64,000 bases of DNA. It comes from Ferruginibacter sp. HRS2-29 (GTDB taxonomy: Bacteria; Bacteroidota; Bacteroidia; Chitinophagales; Chitinophagaceae). The notes beneath the pieces are model-generated. The model was not told the DNA's origin. It worked only from the letters and a program-made list of their open reading frames with translations, and made no database searches. Within the stretch, counting starts at the first letter, position 1. Every line of letters begins with the position of its first letter. This document shows, one piece after another, positions 9,054-41,507 of the stretch. The DNA lies in NCBI RefSeq assembly GCF_024343615.1, contig NZ_RJUB01000125.1:1-64000 (forward strand), written 5' to 3'. The position numbers and the translations under genes are program-made.

Positions 9054-9641
9054 TTAACTAGTTGGCTTCTCGTTGCTTTTCTGGCCGGATGAAATTTTCA
9101 TACTTTTTTCAAACCTCCATATCATTAAAAAGATAGCCAGATAAGCTGCAATATTGAACCACGTGTGATGATCGACGCCTAAAGGCATCTCCCAGTTGCG
9201 GTTAATGGCAGTGAGATATAAGGAGATCCGGATGACGTTGATGATGAACAACAGCAATACGCCGCCAAATGACCAGATGATCTTTTTGCCAATGCTGATG
9301 CTGTTCGATAGCACATAAGCCAGCCAGAAACTATACACTCCATAGCCCACACAATCCATCGCGATGAAGACCGATTTACCCATCACGAAACGGATGAGAA
9401 AACCGGGTTCTACCTGGGTTTTGATACCGCATAAAGAAAGCAGCCACTGCGTACAAAGCAGTAACATGTTTTTTATACCGCTTACATAATCAAAATATTC
9501 AGCAACGAACGGACTGTAATAACCTTCGGGTGAAGCGAGACCGATAACGGCTAATGTGCCGAAATACAAGACACAAAAGATCAGCAGGAATTTCGCTACA
9601 AACCACAAAAATTTTTTATCACCCAGGAAACTCCCTTTCAT
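9054..9641 (-). CDS. Exosortase-family membrane transpeptidase (XrtY-like)
   Basis: The 195-aa protein with about six hydrophobic segments carries the exosortase/archaeosortase catalytic pattern: Cys97 in MDCVGYG, Arg138 in NVIRIS and His158/159 in VDHHTW, each at or next to a membrane helix. Exosortases cleave a C-terminal tripartite sorting tag (motif, membrane helix, basic tail) and probably transfer the protein to an acceptor; they typically sit in EPS loci. The ATG overlaps the stop of the upstream GT4 gene by 4 bp, and the acyltransferase follows 1 bp later. The only tag-bearing candidate seen in the window is the 71-aa protein at 41233-41448. The subfamily name is from memory and was not checked against a profile. 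Confidence 0.85.
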   Translation of the reverse strand: MKGSFLGDKKFLWFVAKFLLIFCVLYFGTLAVIGLASPEGYYSPFVAEYFDYVSGIKNMLLLCTQWLLSLCGIKTQVEPGFLIRFVMGKSVFIAMDCVGYGVYSFWLAYVLSNSISIGKKIIWSFGGVLLLFIINVIRISLYLTAINRNWEMPLGVDHHTWFNIAAYLAIFLMIWRFEKSMKISSGQKSNEKPTS

Positions 9642-10753
9642 AATTCAAACATTCTTTTATATTGTTTTTCCAGAAACGCATGATCGGTATGGCTTGCGGC
9701 ATAATCGATCGCGGCCTGCTGGTAAGGGGTATATTGCTTTTTGTCGAGCCTGATAAATTCTTCTATCGCTGTGGCTACCGCGTCTTCGGTGAGTTCCACA
9801 TTTTTGCCTGCCCCGCTTTCTGCCAGGCCATTCCATGGCGTATTGTTGCTAGTAATCACCGGCAATCCGGCACTCAATGCTTCTATGATGGAGTGCCCGT
9901 AATTTTCACTCTTACTCGGCAAGATGAAAACATCGGCTTCCTGCAATACTTCGTTCACAAACCGTGGCTCAAGGTTACCGTGATAATTCACTTTAACATT
10001 CCACCTGAATTTTTTCATCACATCCAGGCATACATTCCAGTACTCCATATCTTTCACCGGCCCGTAGATATCGTACGTCACTTTATAATTGGTGCGCCTC
10101 AATGCATTCAATACCAGCAGATGGTTTTTCATGGGGCTTATCAATGCCACACTCACCAGCCGCAGGATGCCATATTGTTTGGTGATGTTGGGCGCCTTCA
10201 GCAATTTCCTTGGAAAATTGCCCGCGATATCCACTTTCACTTTTGGCCCGAAAACCGCTTTTACAAAACCCTCTTCTTTTTCATCAGTAGCATGAAACGT
10301 AATTTTTTTATGCAGCCGTGCCATCTTCCATGAGCGAAGAAAAATATTTTTTTTCCAGCTTTTCTGCGACAAAGCACCGGGATGCAACATCCCCCTTACA
10401 GATACTATTTTCTTTTTTGCTTCGCAAAATAACAAGGGTACCAGGTTGAAATGCCAGTCGTACAGGCCAATGATGTACAGCACTTCCGGTTTTTCCTCCT
10501 TCACTAACCGCAGCAATGTTTCACTTTTATTTTTTGCCGAAGCATACCACACTTTGGTGTAAACATTATAATCTGTCCACCTGCCGCTTTCTATATTCAA
10601 TAAAGGCTCATTATTGAGATCGGTAGACGAACAGAATATCCTGTATTGCACACCATCTGTAAAAGAATCTACCAGGTTGGCGATGGATTGCACGGGCCCC
10701 CCGGCTTTATAAGCAGGGCGGAACCAGGGAATGCTGATGAAGATGGTTTTCAA
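9638..10753 (-). CDS. GT4-type glycosyltransferase coupled to Wzy-like and exosortase genes
   Basis: This GT-B enzyme starts LKTIFISIPWFRPAYKAGGPV and has a C-terminal donor-binding domain with an EX7E motif (ENYGHSIIE, around residue 305). A longer frame is open to an ATG at 10807, but the TTG at 10753 is preferred. It gives the usual GT4 N-terminus and overlaps the upstream Wzy stop as TTGA, a translational-coupling arrangement. The downstream exosortase ATG overlaps this gene's stop in the same way. The conserved trio (Wzy-like, GT4, exosortase) suggests this enzyme works on the substrate handled by the exosortase or polymerase. Donor and acceptor are unknown. Confidence 0.85.
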   Translation of the reverse strand: MKTIFISIPWFRPAYKAGGPVQSIANLVDSFTDGVQYRIFCSSTDLNNEPLLNIESGRWTDYNVYTKVWYASAKNKSETLLRLVKEEKPEVLYIIGLYDWHFNLVPLLFCEAKKKIVSVRGMLHPGALSQKSWKKNIFLRSWKMARLHKKITFHATDEKEEGFVKAVFGPKVKVDIAGNFPRKLLKAPNITKQYGILRLVSVALISPMKNHLLVLNALRRTNYKVTYDIYGPVKDMEYWNVCLDVMKKFRWNVKVNYHGNLEPRFVNEVLQEADVFILPSKSENYGHSIIEALSAGLPVITSNNTPWNGLAESGAGKNVELTEDAVATAIEEFIRLDKKQYTPYQQAAIDYAASHTDHAFLEKQYKRMFEL

Positions 10754-12141
10754 GTGGTGGGTTGTAATACGGGTATTTTGCGGCGTACATAAAATTTGTG
10801 TTTCCACACCTGCAACATGATAAATATCAGGAAGCTGGATTTCACTACGTGGCCGAGGATCGTTTGCAATTCACAATCGGGACGTATCGGATAATAAAAT
10901 ACCAAAGGCGTGATCACCATCAATATCGGGAAGCGGTAGGAATGCCGGGCAAAGCTGTTCAGTACCCAGCTGAAGAACAGCCCGTAAAAGAACATGAATA
11001 TCGAGCCGCCCATTTCACCCCAGTTTACATAGGCATCCCCGAGTGAACTCAGCCCCATGGAAGTACCTTTCTGCAAAGGGATGCCGGTATATTTTGTAAA
11101 TATTTTCCTGTCGCCGGCATTCAGTTTATTGGGAGCGAGTATCCTTGGAAGTATGGCGGATTGTACAATGAGCAACATTTCCTCCCCGTTTTCAAAGGGC
11201 TGCTTGGCAGGTACCGTTGCCATGATGTTGGTAATGATGAATCCCTGGTTGATCCTGATATTACTTTCTGCAAGCCTTTCAACACTGAATATGCCCCCGT
11301 CTTTTCCACGCCTGTCTTCTTCAATAACTTTATTCAATGTTTCCAGGCCTGCCTCCTGCCCTTCCTTCCAGGTAGATTCGCGGTAATCGGATTTGATCAG
11401 CTGAATGAAAGTGGCAAGGGTCATAAAAGCGAGCACAAATCCACCTTTCACCAGATTGCTTGGTTGATATTTGAGCGCAAACACTGCCCCGAGAAAGATC
11501 AGCCATATCAACAGATCATGAAACATACCTGCCGACAGCGAAGAGATAAATATAGCTCCATATACTACAATGAGCGTGAGCGGTTTCAATTTACGATCAC
11601 CTAAGATCAGCAGACTTGTACCGATAAATTTCAACCCGCCCAGCAATACAAATACGAAACCCAGTTCTGATCCGAAAAATCCTGAAACGACACTGGAGAA
11701 AAAACCTATCGCAATAAATACATAAGGTAACCGGGGGTTGAACTTTACGAATTTTTGTATTGCAATCCGGTCGATTGTTTCCCCTTTGAATTTGCCCGCA
11801 AAAAAATGTAATCCCATGATGAATAAGATCACAGCCGGTATTGCGTATGCAAAGTATTGCTCTTCGGGCACCTGCATCTTGTAGTACATCAGCTGGTATT
11901 CATCCAGGCCGCTGTAGGCAAATGCGGGCCCAAGAAACATCTGAAGACACATGAAACTTCCCAGCAGGTAACGTATAGGAAGCACATAACCGAAGCTATA
12001 AAACAACAAAAAAAACTGGTGCAAGGTGATCGCAATAGCAAAGAAACTCAGCCAGGTAATATCCATGAACAATACCCTGATGAGCAATAAAGACACCAGA
12101 TATATAGGCCAACTGAATTTTACTTGAAATAATGAGTACAT
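10750..12141 (-). CDS. Wzy-like oligosaccharide repeat-unit polymerase (membrane protein)
   Basis: The 463-aa polytopic protein has about 11-12 hydrophobic helices and a large soluble loop around residues 255-345 (SDYRESTWKEGQEAG ... LNAGDRKIFTKYTG), the layout of O-antigen/EPS polymerases. Sequence conservation in this class is poor, so the call rests on topology, the EPS context and coupling to the exosortase gene. Wzy enzymes polymerise undecaprenyl-linked repeat units on the periplasmic face. It overlaps the following GT4 start (TTGA) and lies 10 bp after the upstream GT. An O-antigen ligase-like role is the main alternative. Confidence 0.75.
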   Translation of the reverse strand: MYSLFQVKFSWPIYLVSLLLIRVLFMDITWLSFFAIAITLHQFFLLFYSFGYVLPIRYLLGSFMCLQMFLGPAFAYSGLDEYQLMYYKMQVPEEQYFAYAIPAVILFIMGLHFFAGKFKGETIDRIAIQKFVKFNPRLPYVFIAIGFFSSVVSGFFGSELGFVFVLLGGLKFIGTSLLILGDRKLKPLTLIVVYGAIFISSLSAGMFHDLLIWLIFLGAVFALKYQPSNLVKGGFVLAFMTLATFIQLIKSDYRESTWKEGQEAGLETLNKVIEEDRRGKDGGIFSVERLAESNIRINQGFIITNIMATVPAKQPFENGEEMLLIVQSAILPRILAPNKLNAGDRKIFTKYTGIPLQKGTSMGLSSLGDAYVNWGEMGGSIFMFFYGLFFSWVLNSFARHSYRFPILMVITPLVFYYPIRPDCELQTILGHVVKSSFLIFIMLQVWKHKFYVRRKIPVLQPTT

Positions 12142-12151
12142 AATTGGAAAC

Positions 12152-13309
12152 TTAGCTTTTTTCTGCTTCCCGGATCTTATCTAATACAGGCAAAAATACA
12201 TATTCAAAATTTAGTTGCCCGGCAAAAGACTCCCTGGCCGCTTCTGAATATACATCATAATTATCCGCTATCTGTATCAGTATGTTTTTTAATGATTCCC
12301 GGGTGCCGTCAGTAAAGAATGCCCAGGGATATTTTTGAAGGTATTTGGTAAACTGCTCCGAATCGTACAATATCACCGGTAAGCCACAAGCCGCGTATTC
12401 ATATATTTTATTGGAAGCCGTTCCCAGCGTCTTACTTACATTATCAGTATTCATGTGCACCCCAATGCCCATATGACAGGATGCCGTGAGCTTTGGCAAT
12501 TCAGCATACGGCCCTATACCCACCCACTCCACCTGTTGCGAAACATCTTTACTTTCCGCCTGCGCATTCAACTGTTCCACATATTCTTTTTTCACCGAGC
12601 CTTTCAGGATAAGTTTCAATTGTTTTCCCTTTATCTGATCATTAAGCAGGTCAACGATCTCTTCCAATGCATGCCCCTTACCGATAAATCCCTGGAAAAT
12701 GATCCTGAGATCATCGCCTTGTTTTTTGATGGAAAGATTTTGCGCCGTATACACTTTCAGCGAAGGATAATTCGGGATGATGAATGCATCCAGTCCCGGC
12801 TTCAGCCCGGGGTAAAATCTTGTCCTGTCGGGAGAAGGCAGGGAAAAATAATCGATGTGCCGCATGGCGTTCTTTTCATAACGCCCCGCCATTCCGCCTA
12901 GGGTGAACCTACTCAGCCTCGTCATATCCGGCATATCGTGATTGTGATACCAGACCTTTATTTTTTTTGATAAAAATTTCCTGGATACAAAATAAGAAAA
13001 CAATGGAAACGGGTCGTACAGCACCAGCATCTCCGTTCCCTTCTGCCGGCAGGCGCTTACCAGTGTTTTGGTAAAACGATAGAAGGAACTGAACTTCTGA
13101 AACGTGGATACTTCTGCCGATTCGCGGACCGACATGAACTTGCCGATCTTTTTCAATACCACATTCGATGGATAATTAAAATCGGACAGGCTATGGTTGC
13201 GGGTTACCACCACCACTTCATCATATAACTCCGCGAAATTGAGGATCGCGTTGATGGTAGGCGGATAAAAATCCGGGTCTATATAAATAGCTACAACAAT
13301 TCTTCTCAT
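12152..13309 (-). CDS. GT-B glycosyltransferase (family 4-like)
   Basis: This 385-aa protein has a Rossmann-like N-terminal half (MRRIVVAIYIDPDFYPP) and a C-terminal donor domain (IIFQGFIGKGHALEE; NKIYEYAACGLPVIL around residue 315). The usual EX7E motif is replaced by a KIYEYAACGLP version, as in some GT1/GT4 relatives. It probably adds a sugar to the EPS repeat unit at the cytoplasmic face. It starts 2 bp before the stop of the CgeB-like gene region and is followed 10 bp later by Wzy, so it belongs to the same transcript. Confidence 0.75.
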   Translation of the reverse strand: MRRIVVAIYIDPDFYPPTINAILNFAELYDEVVVVTRNHSLSDFNYPSNVVLKKIGKFMSVRESAEVSTFQKFSSFYRFTKTLVSACRQKGTEMLVLYDPFPLFSYFVSRKFLSKKIKVWYHNHDMPDMTRLSRFTLGGMAGRYEKNAMRHIDYFSLPSPDRTRFYPGLKPGLDAFIIPNYPSLKVYTAQNLSIKKQGDDLRIIFQGFIGKGHALEEIVDLLNDQIKGKQLKLILKGSVKKEYVEQLNAQAESKDVSQQVEWVGIGPYAELPKLTASCHMGIGVHMNTDNVSKTLGTASNKIYEYAACGLPVILYDSEQFTKYLQKYPWAFFTDGTRESLKNILIQIADNYDVYSEAARESFAGQLNFEYVFLPVLDKIREAEKS

Positions 13310-13311
13310 GT

Positions 13312-14334
13312 TCAGATCTTTTCAATTACCCTCGTAAGCCTCGAGCGATGATCGTAGCCGCTCCGGATGGACCTTTCCAATCCCGCGGCAGCGATCGCTT
13401 TCCTTTCTTCGGGATGAGCGAGGTAATAATTTACTTTTTCAAGCATTTCTTCCTTCGTGTTTACAAATACGGCTTCTTGTCCGTTGTCAAAAAGATCAAG
13501 ATGCAGCTCACTCGTTTCGCCCAGCATGAACACTCCGCAGGCCGGTATTTCAAAAGTGCGGCTATCCTGTTCATCGCGGTTCACATGGCGGAGAAAGTGT
13601 AACGCGATATCCATGCCGTTGATGGTTTTTATATAATCTTCGCCATACACCGAGCGCCCCCTGTAAAACGGTTTTATCTTTTCCCAGTTCTTCGCATTCT
13701 CCCAATCGTTGCCGGTAACCCAAACTTTTATTCCATGGTCGAGCAGGTACACGATCCAGTCTTCGCGATAAGATTCGTGCGTTCCTACAAAACCAACTTC
13801 CGCATCAAACTTTTTATGCTCTTCGGCCGAAAGCAATAACGGCCGGTGAAAAGACGGATCGAATGAACGATAACATATTTCAACCCGCTTGGCCCCGCGA
13901 TCTTTTAACTCCTGTATGTTGATGCTGCGCTGTACAAAATGAACATCGAAACAGGGAGCCGTATTTAAATACAAGCGCCATTTCCTGCCCAGCGGATCAT
14001 CCGTAAGCAGGCTGATGATCTTTGTTGAAGGATGATCCCTGCGGATCTTTTTCAGCAATGCGGCCTGCAGATAACTTTTATTATCCACCCATATTATTTC
14101 GGGCTGATGTTGCTGAACTGCTTTCCACACGGCGTTATTGAGACGATGGATGCCGGGGCCGATGTTCAGGTGAAAATGAAATTTTGTAAAGATATTTCCG
14201 AAAATGAACGGATCGGTATCCAATCCATGTACCGTGTGGCCCATTGCCTGCAACGTCTGGAACCGCCTGTAACAATTTCCCGATTGGTCGAGTGTGCCGA
14301 TGTATAATATATTCAACGATGCGGTGCTGTTCAC
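13312..14334 (-). CDS. CgeB/YkvP-like glycosyltransferase
   Basis: The 340-aa protein with a GTG start has NILYIGTLDQSGNCYRRF at the N-terminus, VGFVGTHESYREDWI in the middle and a C-terminal DSRTFEIPACGVFMLGE...LFDNGQEAVFV block. That block matches the glycosyl-transferases-group-1-like domain of Bacillus CgeB and related maturation proteins. Proteins of this type in polysaccharide loci are assumed to be GT-B glycosyltransferases; the substrate is unknown. It follows the AsnB-like gene by 4 bp and precedes another GT by 2 bp. Confidence 0.78.
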   Translation of the reverse strand: MNSTASLNILYIGTLDQSGNCYRRFQTLQAMGHTVHGLDTDPFIFGNIFTKFHFHLNIGPGIHRLNNAVWKAVQQHQPEIIWVDNKSYLQAALLKKIRRDHPSTKIISLLTDDPLGRKWRLYLNTAPCFDVHFVQRSINIQELKDRGAKRVEICYRSFDPSFHRPLLLSAEEHKKFDAEVGFVGTHESYREDWIVYLLDHGIKVWVTGNDWENAKNWEKIKPFYRGRSVYGEDYIKTINGMDIALHFLRHVNRDEQDSRTFEIPACGVFMLGETSELHLDLFDNGQEAVFVNTKEEMLEKVNYYLAHPEERKAIAAAGLERSIRSGYDHRSRLTRVIEKI

Positions 14335-14338
14335 GGAA

Positions 14339-16147: not shown

Positions 16148-16153
16148 ACTGAT

Positions 16154-17326: not shown

Positions 17327-17365
17327 GCTGTATTTAATTATTGATAAGGCTTTTGAAAACCCATT

Positions 17366-18574: not shown

Positions 18575-18589
18575 GTCAGCTCTTCGCCA

Positions 18590-19459: not shown

Positions 19460-19486
19460 GGTATGCTAACGTGCGTTCTGCTTTAA

Positions 19487-20665: not shown

Positions 20666-20685
20666 ATCAGTTAAGCGCCGGCATT

Positions 20686-21744: not shown

Positions 21745-21745
21745 T

Positions 21746-22591: not shown

Positions 22592-22652
22592 GATGCTTAT
22601 TTTCTCTGTATCCCCTTTGGCGGGGAAGATGGTAACGGCATTGCTGATACGC

Positions 22653-23468: not shown

Positions 23469-23470
23469 AA

Positions 23471-27181: not shown

Positions 27182-27185
27182 AAAA

Positions 27186-27818: not shown

Positions 27819-27824
27819 TACTGA

Positions 27825-29830: not shown

Positions 29831-29835
29831 GGGTT

Positions 29836-30648: not shown

Positions 30649-30718
30649 TGTATGATGTATGATGTATGATCTATGATCTATGATCTGTGATCTGTGATGT
30701 ATGATCTATGATCGGTGA
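30649..30718. repeat. Heptamer tandem array (TSTATGA), 10 copies, touching a start codon
   Basis: Ten contiguous 7-bp units (TGTATGA, TCTATGA or TCTGTGA variants, last TCGGTGA) begin at the base next to the TTG start of the minus-strand GT2 gene at 30648. Confidence 0.97.
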
Positions 30719-30812
30719 TGCCAGCCCGGCTGACGCTGTTCGGACGGGTATGATCTGTGAAGTCCGTTCGGTTGGATGTTCAGTGACGGGTAGCTTACAT
30801 TTGCGGTATTGT

Positions 30813-31742
30813 TTAAGCGATCCCGATGCGTTGGCGAACGTTTGCTTCGTTCTTTGTAGCGATGAGATTATTGTATGGGTAATGCAGCCGCATTTTTTCA
30901 ACGGCAAGCTGATCGTTCTCGTACGTGAACCATTGATAGCCGAGGCTTTCGAGCAGGGTGAAAATATCCTGCACAAAATATCCTGCAGCAAATGTATTGG
31001 AATCGGTAAATTCTATGATGAGTGTGGGTGAATGATCGCGGAGGAATTGCAACCCACCTTCCAGCACATATTTTTCCCAGCCTTCCACATCGAGTTTTAT
31101 CAGGGCTACCTTTTCCTTTTCTACTCCCGCAAGCTCATCGTCCAATGTAGCGACAGGAACGGAGATCGATTTATGGAATTTGCCGGAATCGGCCGGCGCG
31201 AAAGTGTTCCATGCATCGTAGCCATTATCGGACTGCTGCATTTCGAGTGTGCCGGGCTTGTCGGACAAACCGATATTCCTTGCGGTAATATTGGTGAAAT
31301 TATTGAGCGTGATATTTTCCATCAGCCTGCTGTAAGTGAGCGGCGATGGCTCAAAAGCGATGATCTTCCCGTTGGCGCCAACGATGCCGGAAGCCAGGAG
31401 CGAGAACAGGCCGATGTTGGAACCGATGTCGAGGAACGTGTCGCCCGGCTTCAAAAATTTCTGCATGAATACGATCTCATTCTCCTCAAATCCATCCACG
31501 ATCACTTTTGAAAGGATGCTGTCTTTGTAAAGATTGATCCGGATGGAATTGTTGATCGTATGCTCAAAATAAGATCTCCCCTGGAAGCGGTCGTCCCATT
31601 CCTTTTCGGCCCTCTTCACATTTCGGTCGTGTGAACCGGCCAATATCTTACCGGTCTTGCGGTTGATGGAACGCACGACCATATTGAATTTTATCTCGAG
31701 ATAAGACCCGAGCCTTTCTAGAGTGAATTTTTTGTTTCCCAT
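30813..31742 (-). CDS. FkbM-family methyltransferase
   Basis: This 309-aa protein has the FkbM-type SAM-binding region DTFLDIGSNIGLFSLLAS (around residues 96-113), IIAFEPSP, and LIKLDVEGWEKYVLEG (around 205), which is diagnostic of the family. FkbM proteins O-methylate sugars or polyketides; in EPS loci they usually methylate a glycan residue. The ATG lies 25 bp inside the end of the Wzt gene. Placement directly after the ABC transporter could mean that it caps chain ends, as terminal methylation does in Wzm/Wzt O-antigens, but this is inference. Confidence 0.9.
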   Translation of the reverse strand: MGNKKFTLERLGSYLEIKFNMVVRSINRKTGKILAGSHDRNVKRAEKEWDDRFQGRSYFEHTINNSIRINLYKDSILSKVIVDGFEENEIVFMQKFLKPGDTFLDIGSNIGLFSLLASGIVGANGKIIAFEPSPLTYSRLMENITLNNFTNITARNIGLSDKPGTLEMQQSDNGYDAWNTFAPADSGKFHKSISVPVATLDDELAGVEKEKVALIKLDVEGWEKYVLEGGLQFLRDHSPTLIIEFTDSNTFAAGYFVQDIFTLLESLGYQWFTYENDQLAVEKMRLHYPYNNLIATKNEANVRQRIGIA

Positions 31743-33004
31743 TTGATTCTTGGCATTATGAGGCCTGGCCTTGTGTCTGAATAAAATTTATTAAGTCCGA
31801 ACAATGTGGTGATCGCCAGCGGCACCCGGATGCTGTCGTAGGAGATCCATCTTACATTATGGATGCCTACCGAGAGGCTGATGAGGTAATTGCCGGCATT
31901 GAGGAAATCGCTGTCGAGTGTCATTTCCGAAGTGTAGGTGCCGGGCTGTGTGTAATTCATTTCCTGGTACTCATCATCGTGAAAAGTGCGGAACAACACG
32001 ATCTCCGATTGTTGCTCTATCAAATCAATACCAACCCGGAGGCCGAGTACGGCTTTTTTAACTTTGTACTGAAACCTTACTACGATCTCTTTTCCGGAAC
32101 CGTATTCCTGTTTGGCTTCGCCTTCCTGCAATATCTCTACATCGATGAATTCAAAATGTTCATCCTCGATCTTCTTCAGTTGCTCAAGGATCGTTTCTTT
32201 TGATAACTGATTGTCGCGATCCTGGTACCTGCGGATCCCTTCAAATGTATCGCCCTGGAATGTCTTGGTACCATTTTGCAGAAGGATCACATTGTTGCAG
32301 AGATTGGAAATGGCGCCCATATTGTGGCTTACGAACAACACCGTCCGCCCTTCTTTTCCGCTTACGTCTTTCATTTTGCCGAGGGCTTTTTTTTGAAACT
32401 CCGCGTCGCCAACAGCCAGCACTTCGTCCACGATCAATATTTCCGGCTCCAGGTGTGCGGCTACGCCAAATGCAAGGCGCACGTACATCCCGGAGGAATA
32501 TCTTTTTACGGGGGTATCGATGTAGCGTTCCACACCGGCGAAATCCACTATTTCGTCAAACTTTGATTTGATCTCTTTTTTCGTCATGCCCAATATGGCG
32601 CCATTCAAAAAGATATTATCGCGGCCGCTGAGTTCGGGATGAAACCCGGTGCCTACTTCCAGCAGTGATGCCACCCTTCCTTTGATCTTTATCTGGCCGG
32701 TAGTAGGAGCAGTAGTACGACTGAGTATTTTAAGCAACGTACTTTTGCCGGCGCCGTTTCGTCCGATGATGCCGGTGACTTCGCCCTGCGCTACTTCAAA
32801 ATTGATGTCGCGGAGCGCCCATACATAATCGCTGCTGGCTTTCTGCGAACGGTCGTTCACATCGCCGATCTGCAGGTAAGGGTCTTCCTTTCCGCGGATG
32901 CGGTGCCATGTCCTGTTGAGGTCATGCGCCAGGGAGCCCGTACCTACTGCACCCAGGCGGTATTGCTTGGAGATATTTTCTACTTTTATGACGGTTTGGT
33001 TCAT
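31718..33004 (-). CDS. wzt: Polysaccharide ABC exporter ATPase Wzt with C-terminal glycan-binding domain
   Basis: The 428-aa ATPase has Walker A GRNGAGKSTLLK (around residue 80), the signature YSSGMYVRLAF (around 168), Walker B EILIVDEVLAVGD and an SHNMG switch His. A C-terminal beta-sandwich of about 140 residues (around 290-428) matches the Wzt_C type that recognises chain-terminal modifications. The frame extends 61 codons further upstream into the permease gene, but MNQTVIKVENISKQY at 33004 is the conserved start. It pairs with the permease 14 bp upstream. Confidence 0.93.
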   Translation of the reverse strand: MNQTVIKVENISKQYRLGAVGTGSLAHDLNRTWHRIRGKEDPYLQIGDVNDRSQKASSDYVWALRDINFEVAQGEVTGIIGRNGAGKSTLLKILSRTTAPTTGQIKIKGRVASLLEVGTGFHPELSGRDNIFLNGAILGMTKKEIKSKFDEIVDFAGVERYIDTPVKRYSSGMYVRLAFGVAAHLEPEILIVDEVLAVGDAEFQKKALGKMKDVSGKEGRTVLFVSHNMGAISNLCNNVILLQNGTKTFQGDTFEGIRRYQDRDNQLSKETILEQLKKIEDEHFEFIDVEILQEGEAKQEYGSGKEIVVRFQYKVKKAVLGLRVGIDLIEQQSEIVLFRTFHDDEYQEMNYTQPGTYTSEMTLDSDFLNAGNYLISLSVGIHNVRWISYDSIRVPLAITTLFGLNKFYSDTRPGLIMPRIKWETKNSL

Positions 33005-33018
33005 GTTGTCGGAAAAAA

Positions 33019-33897
33019 TTAAACGGTATCCATAAATGATCTTTCCACTTTGCTGAACATGACGAGCCCTATCATCACTACGATGATGATGAACGTGCCG
33101 CTGAACAGCAATCCCTGTACATCCAATTGCCCTACGCCGAATATTGAATAACGGAATGCTTCCACGATAGGTGAAAGCGGGTTCCATGCCACCCAGCCCC
33201 CGAGCCCTTTATCTTTCAGGTAAGAAAGCGGGTACGCCACAGGAGTGGCATACATCAGCAGCTGCACGGCAAAACCGATAAGTACGTTGAAATCGCGGTA
33301 CTTGGTGGTGAGGGATGAAATGATGATGCCCATCCCAAGCCCGAGGCCCGCCATCATCAACACCAGCAATGGTATGAGCAGCCAGCTGAGGCCGAAATGA
33401 AAATGCCCGTTCTTTACGCCAAACCAACTGAGCACTACCAGCAATAAAAAAAACTGGATACCGAATTTTACGATATTGCTCATTACGCTGCTCAACGGTA
33501 TCACCAGCCTTGGAAAATATACTTTACCGAAAATATTGGCATTGGCTACAAAAGTGGAAGAAGTGGCGGTAAGGCAACTGCTGAAATAATTCCAGATCGC
33601 GATCCCGCTCATGTAGAAAGGGATGCGGTCGATACCATCGGTAGGAATGCCGGCCACCTGTCCGAAGATGAACATGTAAATGACAGTGGTAAAGATGGGC
33701 TGAATAAAATGCCATAGCGGACCGAGTATGGTCTGTTTGTATTGCGATACAAAATCGCGTTTTACAAAAAGCCACAACAGATCGCGGTAGCGCCACACTT
33801 CAGCCAGGTTGAGGTCGAGCAGCTTTGCACGGGGTTCTATGACGGTATCCCAATGTTCGGCGGTACTGTCAGAACCCCGGGTGGTTTGCGTATCCAT
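33019..33897 (-). CDS. wzm: Polysaccharide ABC exporter permease Wzm
   Basis: The ABC-2 type permease is about 292 aa, with the N-terminal amphipathic YRDLLWLFVKRDF motif (around residues 37-49), QTILGPLWHFIQPIFTT and six hydrophobic helices. MDTQTTRGSD at 33897 is chosen as start because the 15 residues before it in the longer frame are hydrophobic and untypical. With Wzt it would export an undecaprenyl-linked finished glycan across the inner membrane. It coexists with a Wzy-like gene, which is mechanistically redundant for a single polymer. Confidence 0.92.
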   Translation of the reverse strand: MDTQTTRGSDSTAEHWDTVIEPRAKLLDLNLAEVWRYRDLLWLFVKRDFVSQYKQTILGPLWHFIQPIFTTVIYMFIFGQVAGIPTDGIDRIPFYMSGIAIWNYFSSCLTATSSTFVANANIFGKVYFPRLVIPLSSVMSNIVKFGIQFFLLLVVLSWFGVKNGHFHFGLSWLLIPLLVLMMAGLGLGMGIIISSLTTKYRDFNVLIGFAVQLLMYATPVAYPLSYLKDKGLGGWVAWNPLSPIVEAFRYSIFGVGQLDVQGLLFSGTFIIIVVMIGLVMFSKVERSFMDTV

Positions 33898-33947
33898 ATT
33901 TAATTCGTTCGTAATGAGTTGTAAGTTATATAAGATTATCACTTACG

Positions 33948-34014
33948 CTGTCAGCCTGAGCTTGTCGAAGGTTTTCTTTGCCTGATTTCGCCTTCGACAA
34001 GCTCAGGCTGACAG
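33948..34014. repeat. Perfect 24-bp inverted repeat between GT4 and wzm
   Basis: Arms 33948-33971 (starts ctgtcagcctgagcttg) and 33991-34014 are exact reverse complements separated by 19 bp. The structure lies 5 bp after the stop of the minus-strand GT4 gene and about 50 bp before wzm. No T-run follows, so it resembles a dispersed palindromic element more than a terminator. It could still reduce read-through or protect mRNA ends. Confidence 0.9.
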
Positions 34015-34019
34015 CTATT

Positions 34020-35150: not shown

Positions 35151-35166
35151 AACTATCTGTTTGTTT

Positions 35167-36960
35167 TTATGCGGCTTTTCTTTTGCGCAGCAATATCAGC
35201 GACATCAGGTTGCTCCAATGCAGGTTTCCCGAACGGAATTTCTGGTAATTGAGTTGGGTGTTCTTTTCGCTTCCGGCCATCAGTTCTTTTACATATTCAC
35301 TGTTTCCCAGCCACTCGGTGAACGGAAAGCTGAAGCCCATTTTTTTGCGATTGAAGATGGCATCCGGCAGATCGGTCCTGAATGCATCGATGAGCAGTTG
35401 TTTCGGATGTTCACCGGCGTATTTTACTTCGGGTGCTATGGAGCAGGTTTGGCGGATGAGTGTATCATCCAGGAACGGCACGCGTATTTCAAGCCCGTGC
35501 GCCATGCTCATCACATCCGCATCCCGCAGCAACTGGTTTTGCATATAGAGGTTCATCTCCATCCAGCTGGCTTCGTTTTTAGGGGCAAGACTATCGGTTA
35601 CCGGAAAAACGGGTGTGCTTTCGAGCGTATCCCAGACTTCCTTTTCGGTACAGCCAAGCTGTGTGGCGATCTGTATTGGGGTGAATTGCCCGCGCAGAAA
35701 AAGATAGAGCCCTTTGATGCCCTCCAGCTGAAGGTAAGCCAGGCGGCTGACGCGTTTATTCGAATTTCTTTTTCCGGCGTTGAGTACCGCATCCGGCAGG
35801 CGTTGTAATTTTTTGGCGGTAGCAATTCTTCCGAAGGAAGGATAACCTCCGAATAATTCATCGCCACCTATGCCGGACAAAACGGCTTTGAGGCCTTGTT
35901 TTGCCGCATGCTTGCTGATGAACCAGGTATTGATGCCATCGCAGCTCGGCATATCCATATCATCCAGTATCGTGGCGAAGGATGCTTCAAATTCCTGCTC
36001 TACCAGTAAATGCTGCGATGATCTGCATTGCAGCTTTTCGATCAGGATATCCTGGTATCGTTTTTCGGAAAACGCTTCTTCGTTGAAATAAAGTGATAAT
36101 GTATTGAGATGTTCCTGCTGCGTTGCTGCCGCAATATTGGTGATGATGCTGGAATCGACACCGCCGCTCAGGAACACGCCTATCGGGGCATCGGAAAGTA
36201 AATGGCCGGTGACGGCCTTTTCAAAATTATTTTTTGTATCGCTGACCGCCTGTCCGCGGCTGGTGATCTTTTCGGAAAAAGTATAAAAGGAAAAACTCTG
36301 AAGGCTGGTAGTTGCTGTTGCAGCTTTATATTTCAGGAAACAACCCTTGTGCAGCGGCCTCACATTGCTGAGGGTTGTTACCGGCTCGGGAATATGCCCA
36401 TAGGCGAGCTGGAGCACCGGCCATTCCTTGCTTTCCACGTGCCTGTGGCCGGAATAGGAGAACGCCCGTATTTCAGAAGCGAACTCGAGACCGGTATCCG
36501 ACAGATGATAATAGAGCGGTTTGATGCCCGCCGCATCACGGACAAGAAATAATTCCTTTTCCTGCCGGTCCCACAGGGCGAATGCGAACATTCCCTGCAG
36601 CCGCGAAAAACCCTGCGTATTCCATCTTGCAAAAGCCGCCAGGACCACTTCGGTATCGGAGTGAGCATGAAACTCATATCCTTCTTTTTTCAATTCGGTC
36701 CTGAGCTCTTTGTAATTGTAAATTTCTCCGTTGAATGTGATCACGTACCGGTCGCGGTAATGCATGGGCTGATGGCCGAGGGCCGAAAGCTCTATCAATG
36801 CCAGCCGGCGATGCCCCAGTACCAGCTGATCTTCGGGTGATACATAACGGCCTTCCCCATCGGGACCGCCGTGGCGCTGCAGGTCGCACATATGGTCTAC
36901 CTGCTGCCGGATGGTTTCAAAAGGAATGGATCTGTCTATTTTGCCTGCTATCCTGCACAT
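35167..36960 (-). CDS. asnB: Asparagine synthase-like amidotransferase, second type
   Basis: The 597-aa class II amidotransferase has catalytic Cys2 in MCRIAGK, RHGGPDG in place of the common RHRGPDG, NGEIYNY, and the synthetase PP-loop SGGVDSSII (around residue 267) with SGIGGDELFGGY. The Arg3 and HGG variants distinguish it from the copy at 14339-16147. It is the first enzyme gene after the UpxY antiterminator. As with the other copy, uronic acid amidation of the glycan is more plausible than bulk asparagine synthesis, but true AsnB activity cannot be excluded. Confidence 0.87.
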   Translation of the reverse strand: MCRIAGKIDRSIPFETIRQQVDHMCDLQRHGGPDGEGRYVSPEDQLVLGHRRLALIELSALGHQPMHYRDRYVITFNGEIYNYKELRTELKKEGYEFHAHSDTEVVLAAFARWNTQGFSRLQGMFAFALWDRQEKELFLVRDAAGIKPLYYHLSDTGLEFASEIRAFSYSGHRHVESKEWPVLQLAYGHIPEPVTTLSNVRPLHKGCFLKYKAATATTSLQSFSFYTFSEKITSRGQAVSDTKNNFEKAVTGHLLSDAPIGVFLSGGVDSSIITNIAAATQQEHLNTLSLYFNEEAFSEKRYQDILIEKLQCRSSQHLLVEQEFEASFATILDDMDMPSCDGINTWFISKHAAKQGLKAVLSGIGGDELFGGYPSFGRIATAKKLQRLPDAVLNAGKRNSNKRVSRLAYLQLEGIKGLYLFLRGQFTPIQIATQLGCTEKEVWDTLESTPVFPVTDSLAPKNEASWMEMNLYMQNQLLRDADVMSMAHGLEIRVPFLDDTLIRQTCSIAPEVKYAGEHPKQLLIDAFRTDLPDAIFNRKKMGFSFPFTEWLGNSEYVKELMAGSEKNTQLNYQKFRSGNLHWSNLMSLILLRKRKAA

Positions 36961-37144
36961 AAGAGAAAACGACGGCGGAAGGACGACGGATAACCGACGA
37001 CCGACAACCGCGGGGTTGTTTAGGTTTGGAAGTGTATTAGGTTAGGTGGTAGATGCTGGATGGTGGTTGCTGGATGCTGGATCATCGCAGCAAGGAACTG
37101 AGCGAAGTTCTGAAATTATGAACTGCCAGTATCCAGCATTTTCC

Positions 37145-37645
37145 TCAAACTGCTTCGAGGTTGCTTTTATCGAATATCGCACTCAGCTCCAGCCCCATGC
37201 TGTCTATTTTTACTTTTGCTTTGTTGCCGCTTACTTCTACTATGATACCTTTGTAATTCATGAGCACCCCTTGTTTTACGATCACGGTCTTGTTCACGTC
37301 AAGGTTTTTATCTGTCACTTCCACATTTTCAAATTCCTGCAGGAACTTCCGGATGGTCACGATGTCTTCTTCCCGCACTACCGCCGGTTTGCCCAGCCAG
37401 TATACATAATTCACGATGCCGTCTACCAGTTTCACATCCCATTTGGCGGCTTCATGGATGTTTACAAAAACATAGCCTTTGAATAGCGGTTCGAGTACTA
37501 CTTTTTTCCGGTCGCTCCATTGTTTCTGTACCCTGTTGAGCGGACAATAATATTCGATGCCTTTGGATTCAAGGTTGGAAGCCACTTTCTTTTCCCATCT
37601 GGGGCGGGTATAAACTACGTACCAGGTTGAATTACTTTCGGTCAT
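37145..37645 (-). CDS. UpxY-type NusG paralogue, EPS-locus transcription antiterminator
   Basis: The ~166-aa protein has an NGN domain (TWYVVYTRPRWEKKVASNL...LFKGYVFVNI, about residues 7-105) and a KOW domain (VLMNYKGIIVEVSGNKAKVKID, about 130-152). Specialised NusG paralogues of the UpxY/RfaH type promote full-length transcription of long polysaccharide operons. The ATG at 37645 is preferred over a TTG eight codons upstream. It is the third gene after wza and wzc and stands just before ~33 kb of biosynthesis genes. A terminator-like hairpin follows wzc, upstream of it, which fits a control point here. Confidence 0.9.
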   Translation of the reverse strand: MTESNSTWYVVYTRPRWEKKVASNLESKGIEYYCPLNRVQKQWSDRKKVVLEPLFKGYVFVNIHEAAKWDVKLVDGIVNYVYWLGKPAVVREEDIVTIRKFLQEFENVEVTDKNLDVNKTVIVKQGVLMNYKGIIVEVSGNKAKVKIDSMGLELSAIFDKSNLEAV

Positions 37646-37743
37646 GGACAAAGCTTCGCTGCTCCTCAATCACAGTTATTCTGTAACGGAAGAGAAAATG
37701 GCTTGAAAACTACAGTATGCAATCCCTGTAGCGGTATGTCTGA

Positions 37744-37774
37744 AAAACAGTAAACATCCCCCGTGAGAGGGATG
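37744..37774 (-). terminator. Terminator-like hairpin after wzc
   Basis: On the minus strand CATCCC (37774-37769) pairs with GGGATG (37760-37755) and is followed by TTTACTGTTTTTC. It lies 12 bp after the wzc stop, before upxY. It may be a regulated stop rather than the end of the operon. Confidence 0.55.
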
Positions 37775-37785
37775 CCCGGCTGCCT

Positions 37786-40221
37786 TTATCTTTTACGTTT
37801 TCCTTTAAATAATTTCTTCACTTTGCCTACCACACCAAACAGGTTTTTAAAGCCTGGTTGTTCCCCTTCGGAAGTATAGTAACTGCTTGCCTCGTTGCCA
37901 TAGCCGTAACCATAGCCGTAGCCATATCCATAGCCATAACCGTACCCGTTTCCATAACCACCAAAACCATAGTTGAATATAGAAACCCCCCGTGGTTTTA
38001 TCCCGTTGAAAACTACGCACATGTTCTTGAAGCGTTTTTCCCTGTTGAGGCTTTCCACCAGGTTGAGGAAGCTGTGAGGGGTAACGGCATGGCGTATCAC
38101 GTATACGGTAATATCAACATACTTGTTGAGCAATTGCGCATCGGTAACCGGACCGATCGGCGCTGAATCGACAATGATATAATCGAAGCGTTCTTTCAGC
38201 TTTTCCATCATTTCGGCGAAGCTGGGTTTACCGATCAACTCTGTAGGGTTAGGTGGTATCGGCCCTGCCGTAACAAGGAATAAGTTGGCATGATCTGTTG
38301 GCTTGATGATCTCATCGAGGGTGGTTTTTCCCACGAGATAACTGGAGATACCCGGATCACGTTTTACATTCAGATGCCTGCTGAGCTTGGGTTTACGAAG
38401 ATCCATCTCCAGCAACGCCACTTTTTTTCCGGTCAATGTGATACTGATGGCAAGATTGGTGGCCACAAAGCTTTTTCCTTCACCGGAAATACTGGAGGTC
38501 ACCAGCAAGGTTTTTTCCTTGTCGTTGAAGCCCATGAAACCAAGGTTGGTGCGGAGTGCCCGGAACTGTTCGGCAATAACGGTTCTCTTACCTTCCGAAA
38601 TAGCTACGTGCATTTTGGTAGGGGATTGTACGATCTCGCCTATCACCGGCACTTTGGTCTTATCTTCCACTTCCCTTCTGAAAAGTATCTTATTGTTGAA
38701 CTGCTCCTGTATCTGCACATACAAAATGAACGCGAGCAGGCCTATGATGAAACCCGTCCAGTAAAATTTACTTGGTATCGGGCGGATCGGGCCACCGGAC
38801 GAAGCGTTTTCCAGCACCCTCAGGTCAGCGGATGTAGACGCTGAGGAAATGGCGGTCTCTTCCCTTTTTTGCAAAAGGAAGGTGTAGATGTTATTTTTGA
38901 TAGCCTGCTGACGGCTGATCTCGAGCAACCCTTTTTCTTTGCCGGGTACGCTGCGAAGCAGGCTGTTGTTGAGTGAAATATTATCGTTGATGCTCCTTGA
39001 TTCTGTCAGGAAGGTATTGCGGATGTTGCCGATGTTCTCGCGGATATCTTTTTTGATACGGCTCACTTTTTCTTCCGCCAGTACCACGGCATTGCTTTGC
39101 GCACCGCCTTCGGCATTGGCTTTTCCGGCATCGAATTCGGCCGCGTACAATTGCGTGAGCAATGAGCTCAGGATCGGATCGGTCACCAGTTGCAATGCAG
39201 GAACCGTACCGGCACGCTGCCCTTTGCTGTTTACGTAACGCTCGAGGCCATTGAGTACATCCAGTTGCAGATCAAGATCGCTTTTACGCTTGTCGAGTTC
39301 CCTTACATTGTTGAAATAAATGGAAGCCTGCCCGGTAAGGTCGGTGATGCCTTCGCGTGATTTATACGTTTCGATGTTGCGTTCTACACTGTCGAGCTGG
39401 GCGATCACGGTATTCAGACGATCATCGATGAAGTTGATGGTATTGGCCGCGATCTGGTTTTTGTCTTTTATCCCGGCAACGTTATATACTTCAAACAGTT
39501 TGTTGAGTACATTTTTAGCTTTTTCCGGAACGGGCGTTTCTATCTTCAGGTCGAGTACGGTAGACTGGTAAGACAAAGGCGCTGCCTTGATACTTCCACT
39601 GAGCGGGCCCGCTGCCGAAGCGATGGTATTGAATACTACGAAATAATTTTTTCCGTGGAGGTTGGTATTATACGTGGGATTGATGCGGAGCCTGTAAGAG
39701 GTCCTGTTGTTGGTGTATACCCCGTCGAAAGGGATATTTTTTCCATCTATCTGCACGATGCGTTTATCCCAGAGGATATCAAATTCGTGGCGGCCTCCCC
39801 CGTTGATACTATCCTTGTCAATGGCTTCAAATACAATGGGGGAATTATCTCCGTACAGCTCTTCTGTCTGAACATTTCCTTTGTTGAAAACGGAGGCATA
39901 AATATTCAGCGATTTCACCACTTCCTGCATCAGCGAGGAGCTCTTCAATACGAGGATCTCATTTTCAACAATTTTCTTTTCGCCGAAAATATTCAAGGCG
40001 TCGAGCACTTTGCTGTCGCTTCCACCCTTCTGTGGATCCTTGAGGAGTACTTTCGCGGAAGCTACATAAATTTTGGTCTGGGAACGGAGATATACATAAG
40101 CGATACTGAGCGCAATACCGGTGAATAATATGAATATTGGCCAATAGGGCAGAAAACGGTTTACAATCTGACGTAAAATATTTGCCTGCGGCTTTTCATT
40201 AAAAAACTGCTCTTCGCTCAT
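37786..40221 (-). CDS. wzc: Wzc-like polysaccharide co-polymerase / BY-kinase
   Basis: The 811-aa protein has a Wzz domain with the first membrane helix at about residues 28-48, a long periplasmic coiled-coil region and a second helix at about 488-508. The cytoplasmic BY-kinase has Walker A SISGEGKSFVATNLA (around 580), Walker A' LLEMDLRKPKL and Walker B IIVDSAPIG (around 682). The tail (around 754-790) is a run of Gly-Tyr dipeptides, the autophosphorylation cluster. Wzc controls chain length and Wza opening through cycles of Tyr phosphorylation, which the PHP phosphatase at 4183-4923 would reverse. It is followed by a terminator-like hairpin and upxY. Confidence 0.95.
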   Translation of the reverse strand: MSEEQFFNEKPQANILRQIVNRFLPYWPIFILFTGIALSIAYVYLRSQTKIYVASAKVLLKDPQKGGSDSKVLDALNIFGEKKIVENEILVLKSSSLMQEVVKSLNIYASVFNKGNVQTEELYGDNSPIVFEAIDKDSINGGGRHEFDILWDKRIVQIDGKNIPFDGVYTNNRTSYRLRINPTYNTNLHGKNYFVVFNTIASAAGPLSGSIKAAPLSYQSTVLDLKIETPVPEKAKNVLNKLFEVYNVAGIKDKNQIAANTINFIDDRLNTVIAQLDSVERNIETYKSREGITDLTGQASIYFNNVRELDKRKSDLDLQLDVLNGLERYVNSKGQRAGTVPALQLVTDPILSSLLTQLYAAEFDAGKANAEGGAQSNAVVLAEEKVSRIKKDIRENIGNIRNTFLTESRSINDNISLNNSLLRSVPGKEKGLLEISRQQAIKNNIYTFLLQKREETAISSASTSADLRVLENASSGGPIRPIPSKFYWTGFIIGLLAFILYVQIQEQFNNKILFRREVEDKTKVPVIGEIVQSPTKMHVAISEGKRTVIAEQFRALRTNLGFMGFNDKEKTLLVTSSISGEGKSFVATNLAISITLTGKKVALLEMDLRKPKLSRHLNVKRDPGISSYLVGKTTLDEIIKPTDHANLFLVTAGPIPPNPTELIGKPSFAEMMEKLKERFDYIIVDSAPIGPVTDAQLLNKYVDITVYVIRHAVTPHSFLNLVESLNREKRFKNMCVVFNGIKPRGVSIFNYGFGGYGNGYGYGYGYGYGYGYGYGNEASSYYTSEGEQPGFKNLFGVVGKVKKLFKGKRKR
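37896..37959. repeat. Hexamer microsatellite encoding the Gly-Tyr tail of Wzc
   Basis: In-frame 6-bp units (GGNTAY on the coding strand) code for about nine consecutive Gly-Tyr pairs. Unit gain or loss would change tyrosine number without a frameshift. Confidence 0.85.
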
Positions 40222-40233
40222 AAAAAAATTGGT

Positions 40234-41010
40234 TTACCTGAAAATCCTGTCGGCTATGATAAGGATCAATGAAACTCCGGAAGCGATCAATGTTACGGTA
40301 GTCTGGACACGCCTGCGTTTTTCTTCGCGTTCCATTTTTTCGATATCCGGTTTCACATATACGATATCGTTGGGTTGTACATAATACCAGGGAGATTTAA
40401 ATAAGGAATGGTCTTCCAGGTTGATATGTTTTACTGTTTTTTCATTTCCTGTTTCGCGTATGATCATCACATCGTCTTTCCTGCTTGCTTCTATCATATC
40501 GCCGCTGAGCACGATCGCATCCAGCAGGCTGAGCGGTTCACCCGGCAGGCTCAATACCTGTGGCGATTTTACTGCCCCCATTACTGTTACACGGTGATTT
40601 AAGAAATATACATTCGCGATAGGGTCTTTCATGTAAGGCAACATCGCATTCTGCAGGTAGAGCGCAAACTCTTTCCTGGTTTTACCTTCCGCTTTTACAC
40701 TACCCAGCCGGTGCAATGCTACTGTTCCATCTGTGGCAACGAGAAAACCGATACCGGTTGTGGCAGTGGAATTGCCGCTGACGATCTCCCCCGCAGCCTG
40801 GTTGAACAATATATCTTCATCTTTGCTCAGGCTGGTGATAACGATACTGAGGTTGTCGCCCGCTTTGATCTTTGCTTCAAAATCATTGTTTACAAAACCG
40901 GTAATGGTAGTGTCTTTAGTCATGGTCTTGAAATACTGGGATTCTTTGGCTGTTTTACAGGAAGTAAAAAGCAGCATCAGACATGACAGGCACACCAGAA
41001 GTTTTGACAT
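40234..41010 (-). CDS. wza: Wza-type outer-membrane polysaccharide export lipoprotein
   Basis: The ~258-aa Poly_export/SLBB protein has a lipobox LLFTSC (lipidated Cys at about residue 18 when starting at the ATG at 41010). A Poly_export domain (YLQNAMLPYMKDPIANVYFL) and an SLBB repeat (VTVMGAVKSPQVLSLPGEPLSLLDAI) follow, and a C-terminal hydrophobic helix (TVTLIASGVSLILIIADRIF). A 12-codon longer frame from 41046 would give an untypical signal peptide. It forms the export channel with Wzc, encoded 12 bp downstream. The C-terminal helix is the likely outer-membrane segment. Confidence 0.93.
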   Translation of the reverse strand: MSKLLVCLSCLMLLFTSCKTAKESQYFKTMTKDTTITGFVNNDFEAKIKAGDNLSIVITSLSKDEDILFNQAAGEIVSGNSTATTGIGFLVATDGTVALHRLGSVKAEGKTRKEFALYLQNAMLPYMKDPIANVYFLNHRVTVMGAVKSPQVLSLPGEPLSLLDAIVLSGDMIEASRKDDVMIIRETGNEKTVKHINLEDHSLFKSPWYYVQPNDIVYVKPDIEKMEREEKRRRVQTTVTLIASGVSLILIIADRIFR

Positions 41011-41175
41011 CGGGACTGGCTTTAGAAAAAAGGGAGATCTATTCATTGAAATTTGACAATATTTCCATCCTTAATGGAGGTTTACAAAACTCGTAAAAAT
41101 TATCCAGAATCTGAAACATAAATTCCGGAAGCGTATGTTATGTTTAAATAACTAAATATCAAGCCTTTAGTAAGC

Positions 41176-41200
41176 TAAAAAGGCAACCTTTCGATTGCCT
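41176..41200 (-). terminator. Terminator-like hairpin after the sorting-tag minipeptide gene
   Basis: On the minus strand AGGCAA-TCGAAAGG-TTGCCT is followed by TTTTAG. It lies 33 bp after the stop of the 71-aa gene and before wza. The 6-bp stem is modest, so partial read-through into wza is plausible. Confidence 0.5.
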
Positions 41201-41232
41201 ATGTTACAAAAACTTATATTGAAACTGATGGA

Positions 41233-41448
41233 TTAATATTTCCTGATTTCAGTCTTTTTTTTCTGATCGTACGCTTTTTTTGCCCCCAGGCCAATTCCGG
41301 CCGCTATCAATAAACTCACTCCCCCGTCGATCGGGCAAGGCACCGGGTTGTCCGGATCACCTGGATCACAAGGTTGCGCTTTCAGCGTTAGCGCTGAAAA
41401 TGAGAACATTAGCACTACCAAAACCCTCACCATCAAAGTCTTTTTCAT
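41233..41448 (-). CDS. Small exosortase-substrate-like protein (PID-type C-terminal sorting tag)
   Basis: The 71-aa protein has a signal peptide (residues 1-24, cleavage after LKA), then a 14-residue acidic, Pro-rich segment with two cysteines (PCDPGDPDNPVPC). The tag follows: PID (39-41), a hydrophobic helix GGVSLLIAAGIGLGA (42-56) and a basic tail KKAYDQKKK. This tripartite C-terminus is the exosortase recognition pattern, similar to Bacteroidota PID-CTERM tags. Almost no cargo remains between signal and tag. It has its own promoter and a terminator-like hairpin and sits at the head of the EPS locus; the exosortase is encoded 32 kb downstream. The function (anchor, primer or signal) is unknown. 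Confidence 0.82.
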   Translation of the reverse strand: MKKTLMVRVLVVLMFSFSALTLKAQPCDPGDPDNPVPCPIDGGVSLLIAAGIGLGAKKAYDQKKKTEIRKY

Positions 41449-41475
41449 ATTGATCTGTATTCGTTACTCTTTTTA

Positions 41476-41507
41476 CAAAAATAAGCCGTTATTTCAATTT
41501 TCAGCAA
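41476..41507 (-). promoter_or_regulatory. Bacteroidota-type promoter (TTG-N21-TATTTTTG)
   Basis: On the minus strand an exact -7 box TATTTTTG (complement of 41476-41483) is preceded by TTG (complement of 41505-41507) at 21 bp spacing. Transcription would begin about 20-25 bp before the ATG at 41448. This is probably the head promoter of the EPS locus. Confidence 0.65.

Follow-up and report, generated by a model that had tools for sequence, protein, structure and literature searches.

What does an exosortase do with a substrate that carries nothing to be anchored? This question is raised by a stretch of 64,000 nucleotides from Ferruginibacter sp. HRS2-29 (contig NZ_RJUB01000125.1, positions 1 to 64,000; hereafter, the window), in which an exosortase and a 71-amino acid protein bearing a PID-CTERM sorting tag (the mini-protein, or mini) are encoded in one exopolysaccharide (EPS) locus. 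How exosortases act on their clients, which acceptor is involved, and why these enzymes accompany EPS genes are, to our knowledge, unsolved. An earlier note on the window had paired the two genes and proposed that the peptide itself is the point, as an anchor, primer, or acceptor for the glycan. By comparing sequences, we show that the pairing and the absence of cargo are general among relatives, that minis typically follow a gene for a type IX secretion system (T9SS) protein, that most of these proteins share a module related to the gliding adhesins RemA and RemZ, and that a Cys pair in one subtype of mini accompanies EPS genes. Both the partnership with T9SS proteins and the subtype that links Cys pairs to EPS genes are additions of the present analysis.

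The exosortase and its cargo-less partner

The exosortase is encoded on the minus strand at 9054-9641 (195 amino acids) and has the residues Cys97, Arg138, and His158, as the earlier note had read them. Its score with the general exosortase model TIGR04178 (27.6 bits; cut-off 23) places it in the exosortase superfamily. The nearest exosortase model is that of exosortase Y (XrtY; NF046083), with which it scores 104.2 bits against a cut-off of 160 bits that is reached in none of the 147 family genomes (the family being read as Chitinophagaceae) in our survey. The locus shares its tag model and its nearest exosortase model with the PID-CTERM/exosortase X and Y systems (NF046080, NF046081, and NF046083) but differs from them in that its exosortase falls below the XrtY cut-off; cleavage or transfer activity of this enzyme is putative. 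It is the single match in its genome (assembly of 5.07 Mb in 161 contigs, with a completeness rating of 100%) both with the XrtY model (E ≤ 10) and with TIGR04178 (E ≤ 0.001).

The mini lies at 41233-41448, also on the minus strand, and matches the PID_CTERM model NF046080 with 40.0 bits (cut-off 26). It reads MKKTLMVRVLVVLMFSFSALTLKA / QPCDPGDPDNPVPC / PIDGGVSLLIAAGIGLGAKKAYDQKKKTEIRKY, that is, a predicted signal peptide (41377-41448), the end of which we placed by eye and a simple rule, so that this first boundary is our own reading; a linker (41335-41376); the PID motif and a helix (41266-41334, the same span as the profile match in the genome); and a basic tail running to 41233. The linker has the 14 residues that the earlier note gave it, whereas the sequence printed there has only 13 letters; it contains three Asp residues, no basic residue, and neither Ser nor Thr. 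Under the Bacteroidetes Q-rule, an N-terminal Gln is expected as pyroglutamate (PMC5837995 and PMC10653852; here and below, PMC numbers refer to excerpts of the papers), and the N-terminal Gln of the processed linker is probably blocked by cyclization. With 14 residues before its tag, the mini is not a classical PEP-CTERM client, in which the tag ends a sizeable protein. All 120 mini homologues listed bear the Pfam accession PF28310; the mini itself gave no match to it in the Pfam copy used, from which we therefore judge the family to be absent.

In the whole genome, and not just in the window for which the earlier note had claimed it, the mini is the only PID_CTERM match above the cut-off among seven at E ≤ 10. 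The remaining six score 11-17 bits, and three of them lie in frames of 649-713 amino acids; the large tagged proteins that the note had named as the possible real substrates are thus not found above the cut-off. Among relatives, PID_CTERM matches occur in 53 of the 147 family genomes (E ≤ 0.01; 46 above the cut-off) and in 49 of 296 genomes of the phylum (E ≤ 0.001). Among the matches listed, the longest family frame with an above-cut-off tag has 192 amino acids, and in family and phylum together all but one of the above-cut-off tags lie in frames of fewer than 200. The only large-cargo candidate above the cut-off among them is a 995-amino acid frame in the phylum set (genome G306); the called protein (L165:10015-12936, 973 amino acids) has a PID-like tail, and no Pfam domain was found in it at E ≤ 0.001. 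A family genome has as many as 17 of the matches listed. In 131 unique minis that could be parsed, the linker has a median length of 14 residues (20 or fewer in 102), its commonest residues are Pro, Asp, and Gly, and 47 linkers contain no Ser or Thr. A substrate without cargo, which the earlier note had treated as an oddity, is thus the rule for the PID-CTERM matches listed in relatives.

The tag and the exosortase occur together. With the XrtY model, 48 family genomes have both, 5 have the tag alone, 4 have the exosortase alone, and 90 have neither (Fisher p 4e-28), so that 48 of the 53 tag-bearing genomes have an exosortase; in the phylum, TIGR04178 detects one in all 49. The genus-mate G034 encodes a mini and an exosortase on one contig, separated by ∼24 kb and each accompanied by polysaccharide genes. 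The co-occurrence in relatives by which the earlier note had wished its pairing to be judged is therefore strong, and the lack of it that would have spoken against the pairing was not obtained. Because the pairing and the lack of cargo are common in relatives, the observation is general and not peculiar to the window.

Type IX proteins upstream of the mini-proteins

The earlier note had placed polysaccharide genes downstream of the mini, which holds, but had left its upstream neighbor unmentioned. Directly upstream, on the same (minus) strand and across a gap of 578 bp, is a gene for a T9SS-type protein of 2445 amino acids (42027-49364; the giant) with a C-terminal sorting domain (CTD) at 42030-42281. 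With TIGR04183 (cut-off 23), the giant scores 20.2 bits (last 200 amino acids), 22.7 bits, and, when frame neighbors are included, 23.1 bits, the last being counted as above the cut-off; with PF18962, it scores 23.9 bits (cut-off 27). We assign it to the type A clients of the T9SS by the fold of its CTD.

This arrangement recurs. Our sample 1 comprised the window and 80 hand-picked stretches (two of them, L099 and L102, centered on exosortases), in which 85 minis, including that of the window, were detected by hidden Markov model (HMM). A same-strand protein of at least 300 amino acids with a hydrophobic start directly precedes 61 of the 85 minis, compared with 225 of 1229 other genes, and 58 of 64 upstream proteins taken by a slightly looser form of this rule match TIGR04183. 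When T9SS calls are made with our own CTD model, a T9SS gene lies directly upstream on the same strand of 52 of 83 minis versus 25 of 1151 other genes (p 1.5e-50). The gaps are mostly below 100 bp, and the partners have 313-3266 amino acids. Sample 2 comprised the best 80 of 138 relatives in named genome records; its query alignment was rich in Cys-type minis, the share of which in this sample is not a frequency. After removal of 6 of the 80 loci as overlapping sample 1 (further overlap is possible), 74 minis were left, 69 with an upstream gene, as judged from simple open reading frame calls. In 50 of these 69, the same-strand upstream gene encodes a CTD or the module described next.

The module spans ∼400 amino acids of the giant (42579-43787, minus strand). 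An HMM trained on 34 family partners, with the window excluded, matches 13 of 15 held-out partners, among them the giant at E 2.5e-59, compared with 10 of 37 T9SS genes not followed by a mini; the training sequences match by construction, and it is the held-out results that provide the test. Eight of the 31 sample 1 minis without a CTD-called upstream gene follow a large module protein that the CTD model had missed, and eight of the 31 directly adjoin an exosortase. With a profile (A2) that includes the window, the module is homologous over ∼270 residues to RemA and RemZ, adhesins of Flavobacterium johnsoniae (E 1.3e-35 and 2.3e-34). The giant, having this module before its CTD, is in this sense RemA/RemZ-like, and an adhesin or gliding function is putative. 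RemZ is itself a type A client, only the CTD of which is well resolved in its structure (PMC10994853). At E ≤ 0.001, none of 30 module sequences matches a family in Pfam or in NCBIfam. The AlphaFold model of the module is confident (pLDDT 87.6, pTM 0.85), and Foldseek gave no match to it in the PDB at E ≤ 0.001.

In a survey in which at most 16 candidates per genome were scored, and on which these counts rest, the module was found in 65 of the 147 family genomes, namely 49 of the 52 that have an exosortase and 16 of the 95 that lack one. With 16 of its 22 candidates scored, the genome of the window has eight module hits, and the seven listed all lie on the contig of the window, upstream of the mini. 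One belongs to a second giant T9SS protein of 2677 amino acids in the window (54464-62497, minus strand; module E 3.4e-59). The module is absent from all 30 best-scoring T9SS loci of this genome; in another genome (G068), it is found in 4 of 30, one of which precedes a mini. The genus-mate G126 retains 66 T9SS hits, and, at the thresholds used, has no PID match, no exosortase (XrtY model only), and no module.

We also noted that the contig of the window has twelve T9SS hits at 42-139 kb, all on the minus strand and upstream of the polysaccharide cluster; seven are in frames of 2035-4551 amino acids, and the window holds the first two (42027-62497). In locus L168 (genome G331), two minis have called frames identical over 97 codons, with their last 60 residues identical, and follow different large proteins with identical last 80 residues; to judge from these identities, this is a recently copied CTD-mini cassette.

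Polysaccharide genes and the Cys-pair subtype

The gene order in the window is giant, mini, wza, wzc, nusG, which agrees with the earlier note in placing the mini at the head of a polysaccharide operon. The wza-like polysaccharide export gene (40234-41046; Poly_export and SLBB_2) begins 186 bp after the mini and is followed by a wzc-like chain-length/tyrosine-kinase gene (37786-40221; Wzz and AAA_31 above their cut-offs, GNVR slightly under) and a NusG-like antiterminator gene (37145-37669; PF02357). The exosortase lies ∼31 kb from the mini on the same contig, among glycosyltransferase genes, and the two, together with the polysaccharide genes between them, are all on the minus strand.

Most of 12 close homologues aligned with the mini of the window carry a GCDPLDPAC-PIDGG-type Cys pair, and the position before wza recurs in relatives with a conserved Cys pair. 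In sample 2, the next gene is wza for 16 of 74 minis, 14 of which lie behind a T9SS gene that is often nearer than wza, and an exosortase for 17 of 74; in sample 1, wza is directly downstream of 3 of 85 (the window, L098, and L148). Three loci (L238, L249, and L098) have the order mini-wza without an adjacent T9SS gene. Over both samples, wza, wzc, or nusG is present in the fetched piece of 27 of 35 minis with at least two Cys residues in the linker versus 5 of 96 others (p 4e-16), some of the exceptions being on short contigs. Giant-mini cassettes also occur in records of Agriterribacter humi YJ03 (L253), Terrimonas sp. NS-102 (L240), and Hymenobacter psychrotolerans DSM 18569 (L308), none of them belonging to the Cys subtype.

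A second Cys pair, of the Flavobacteriales type (CGGPFGPAC-PIDGG), is found in minis that adjoin or lie close to an exosortase and have a wzc gene in the fetched piece; these minis are another lineage in which a Cys pair accompanies polysaccharide genes. Its members are L155, L254, L259, L272, L277, L280, L281, L304, and L306, in most of which the wzc gene is in the opposite orientation. The minis L154, L156, and L176 (genomes of family f5) have Pro-rich linkers of the type PPPPPPGLPIDGG; they are possible clients of exosortase F, the targets of which are said to be unknown.

Elsewhere in the locus, the exosortase adjoins a glycosyltransferase (9638-10807, minus strand) that is XYAG1-like, with 100.9 bits against a cut-off of 400 for XYAG1 itself (NF046085). 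An ABC exporter pair of the Wzm/Wzt type (31718-33942, minus strand; ABC2_membrane, ABC_tran, and Wzt_C) lies beside the Wza/Wzc-like genes, and two polysaccharide export routes may share the locus. The gap between giant and mini (41449-42026) contains repeated palindromes of the type GTTGTTGGTGTTATCACCAACAAC and a 97-nucleotide direct repeat (96% identity). A 60-bp tandem unit (3.2 copies, 94% matches) lies at 6014-6202, at the 3′ end of the minus-strand gene 6201-7925.

A proposed role for the processed peptide

Tentatively, and with slightly less than even confidence, we favor the reading that the mini is a dedicated exosortase substrate, the conjugated product of which serves as an in-trans anchor or adaptor for RemA-like T9SS giants and, in the Cys subtype, joins these giants to polysaccharide. 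Signal peptidase would remove the leader, and the Pro/Asp/Gly peptide of ∼14 residues would be retained in the inner membrane by the PID helix. The exosortase would then cleave at the tag and transfer the new C terminus of the peptide to an acceptor in the envelope. We infer that the product then makes contact with the large RemA-like proteins exported by the type IX system and cooperates with them, so that the anchor or adaptor between giant and envelope is supplied in trans. Because the C terminus of the giant is occupied by its T9SS sorting domain, the exosortase tag would come as a separate peptide. In the Cys-pair subtype, which is the one seen in the window and stands between giant and wza, the peptide would most likely join the giants to the exported polysaccharide; as Ser and Thr are absent from the linker of the window and cyclization of its N-terminal Gln is expected, conjugation through the new C terminus is the plausible route. 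In a more specific version, which we consider rather unlikely, the exosortase would tie the peptide to the end of the EPS or to its lipid carrier, the peptide, being small enough, would leave through Wza along with the glycan, and the module of the T9SS giants would catch the peptide outside. If this were true, protein and polysaccharide coats would be joined despite their separate exit gates, and a sorting tag would be supplied in trans.

Several observations weigh against the favored reading. An exosortase without a PID match occurs in 64 phylum genomes, and the 16 exosortase-less family genomes noted above have module proteins. Among the matches listed, a mini lies within 2 kb of only 57 out of 150 module hits; the genome of the window has one mini for at least seven modules, and in G034, which has 11 module hits, the six listed are all on contigs other than that of the mini, which follows a Polysacc_synt (flippase-type) gene with no adjacent giant. 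Where module proteins outnumber minis in this way, contact would have to be in trans for most. The distances among minis and among CTDs correlate with r 0.36, and with a partial r of 0.11 given module distance (as large in 96 of 2000 permutations); co-variation beyond shared history is thus weak. No glycan acceptor of any exosortase was found in the literature excerpts consulted.

The short gaps between T9SS genes and minis, as with co-translated partners, and the wide range of partner sizes would also suit a mini that acts as an inner-membrane tether or chaperone, keeping the T9SS client near the translocon until the exosortase cut frees it, with no peptide at the surface. We consider this unlikely because it leaves unexplained the minis that, in the absence of a T9SS gene, directly precede wza or adjoin an exosortase, the association of the Cys pair with EPS genes, and the single mini for the seven listed module proteins; further, module proteins can occur in genomes that lack an exosortase. 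The converse proposal, that of the earlier note, in which the peptide alone is the polysaccharide primer or acceptor and other proteins are not involved, draws on the minis directly upstream of wza in both samples and on the Cys-pair subtype. Of that proposal, the pairing, the lack of cargo, and the position before wza are supported. A role for the glycan alone is not, because a T9SS protein, usually large and most often with the RemA-like module, is the more frequent neighbor, being upstream of most sampled minis, whereas the fetched pieces of most minis contain no gene for polysaccharide export. Further, Ser and Thr are missing from the window linker and from 47 of the 131 unique linkers, and the N-terminal Gln is probably blocked, so that a primer or acceptor, a possible role for the peptide, would most easily use the C terminus made by the exosortase. 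We regard the glycan-only form as quite improbable.

Were the mini to serve the giant only, with wza merely happening to be downstream, the T9SS gene found upstream in 14 of 16 EPS-subtype cases, often nearer than wza, would be accounted for. The same gene order in many records, the Cys pair being largely confined to EPS loci, the three loci that keep mini-wza without an adjacent T9SS gene, and the location of the exosortase, which shares the contig and is surrounded by glycosyltransferase genes (at a distance of ∼31 kb here and of 24 kb in G034), make such a coincidence still less probable to us. RmpD offers another precedent for a tiny membrane protein tied to capsule genes: at 49-58 amino acids, it comprises a single membrane helix and a basic domain at the C terminus, its action is mediated by Wzc, and no exosortase tag is described for it in the excerpt (PMC10294653). 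By analogy, the EPS-subtype minis, which adjoin wza and wzc, might bind Wzc and set chain length, with the tag as a mere membrane anchor; this putative binding is very doubtful given the signal peptide of the minis, the fact that their tag tracks exosortases across the phylum, and the lack of wzc in the fetched piece of many of them. Finally, a short secreted peptide with, in one subtype, a Cys pair could be a diffusible signal; the variable linker and the presence of up to 17 matches per genome make this a most improbable role.

The proposed adaptor has counterparts in known systems. PEP-CTERM/exosortase systems (floc formation; cyanoexosortase B) share with ours the signal peptide, motif, helix, basic tail, and an exosortase in an EPS locus, but what they process is described as proteins, whereas our client is a peptide, with the large protein encoded by a separate gene and taking another export route. 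Enzymes of the exosortase type remove tags at the C terminus and are believed to couple something to the end thus created (PMC11980579). Export of a polysaccharide-joined protein by a Wza-type route is a speculation of the authors of PMC12188702, and a study of xrtF mutants of F. johnsoniae reports that exosortase F genes matter in colonization and biofilm formation (PMC10936215). In Porphyromonas and Tannerella, T9SS surface cargo is joined through its C terminus to a linking sugar, and VimA is likened to the pep-cterm_femAB family of exosortase systems (PMC7468200); this is an analogy between systems only, the excerpt containing no exosortase client or mini. The archaeosortase ArtA likewise anchors surface proteins (PMC7157517), but in Archaea, to a lipid, and with large clients such as the S-layer protein. 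The MYXO-CTERM/myxosortase system has a similar tripartite tag with a Cys, as beside the tag in our EPS subtype; its protease belongs to a different family (CPBP), and the Cys of its signature motif is invariant (PMC11980579), whereas 96 of our 131 unique linkers have fewer than two. Excerpts of the literature on exosortases and on the T9SS showed analogy between the systems and no such pairing; open-access literature on PID-CTERM, XrtX/XrtY, exosortases with T9SS, and small PEP-CTERM proteins, to which our search was confined (closed papers and database notes being outside its scope), yielded, among the papers listed, neither a description of a giant-mini cassette nor a paper on the PID-CTERM, XrtX, or XrtY names.

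A mature client of ∼14 residues would be a near-minimal exosortase substrate, and thus one of which the whole product can be read by MS. The finding supplies candidate exosortase partners in Bacteroidota, marks a ∼400-amino acid module without a Pfam or NCBIfam match, and connects two surface systems through the association with RemA-like type IX proteins. The position of the mini behind a giant and before EPS export genes suggests a way in which these bacteria may tie surface proteins to their slime.

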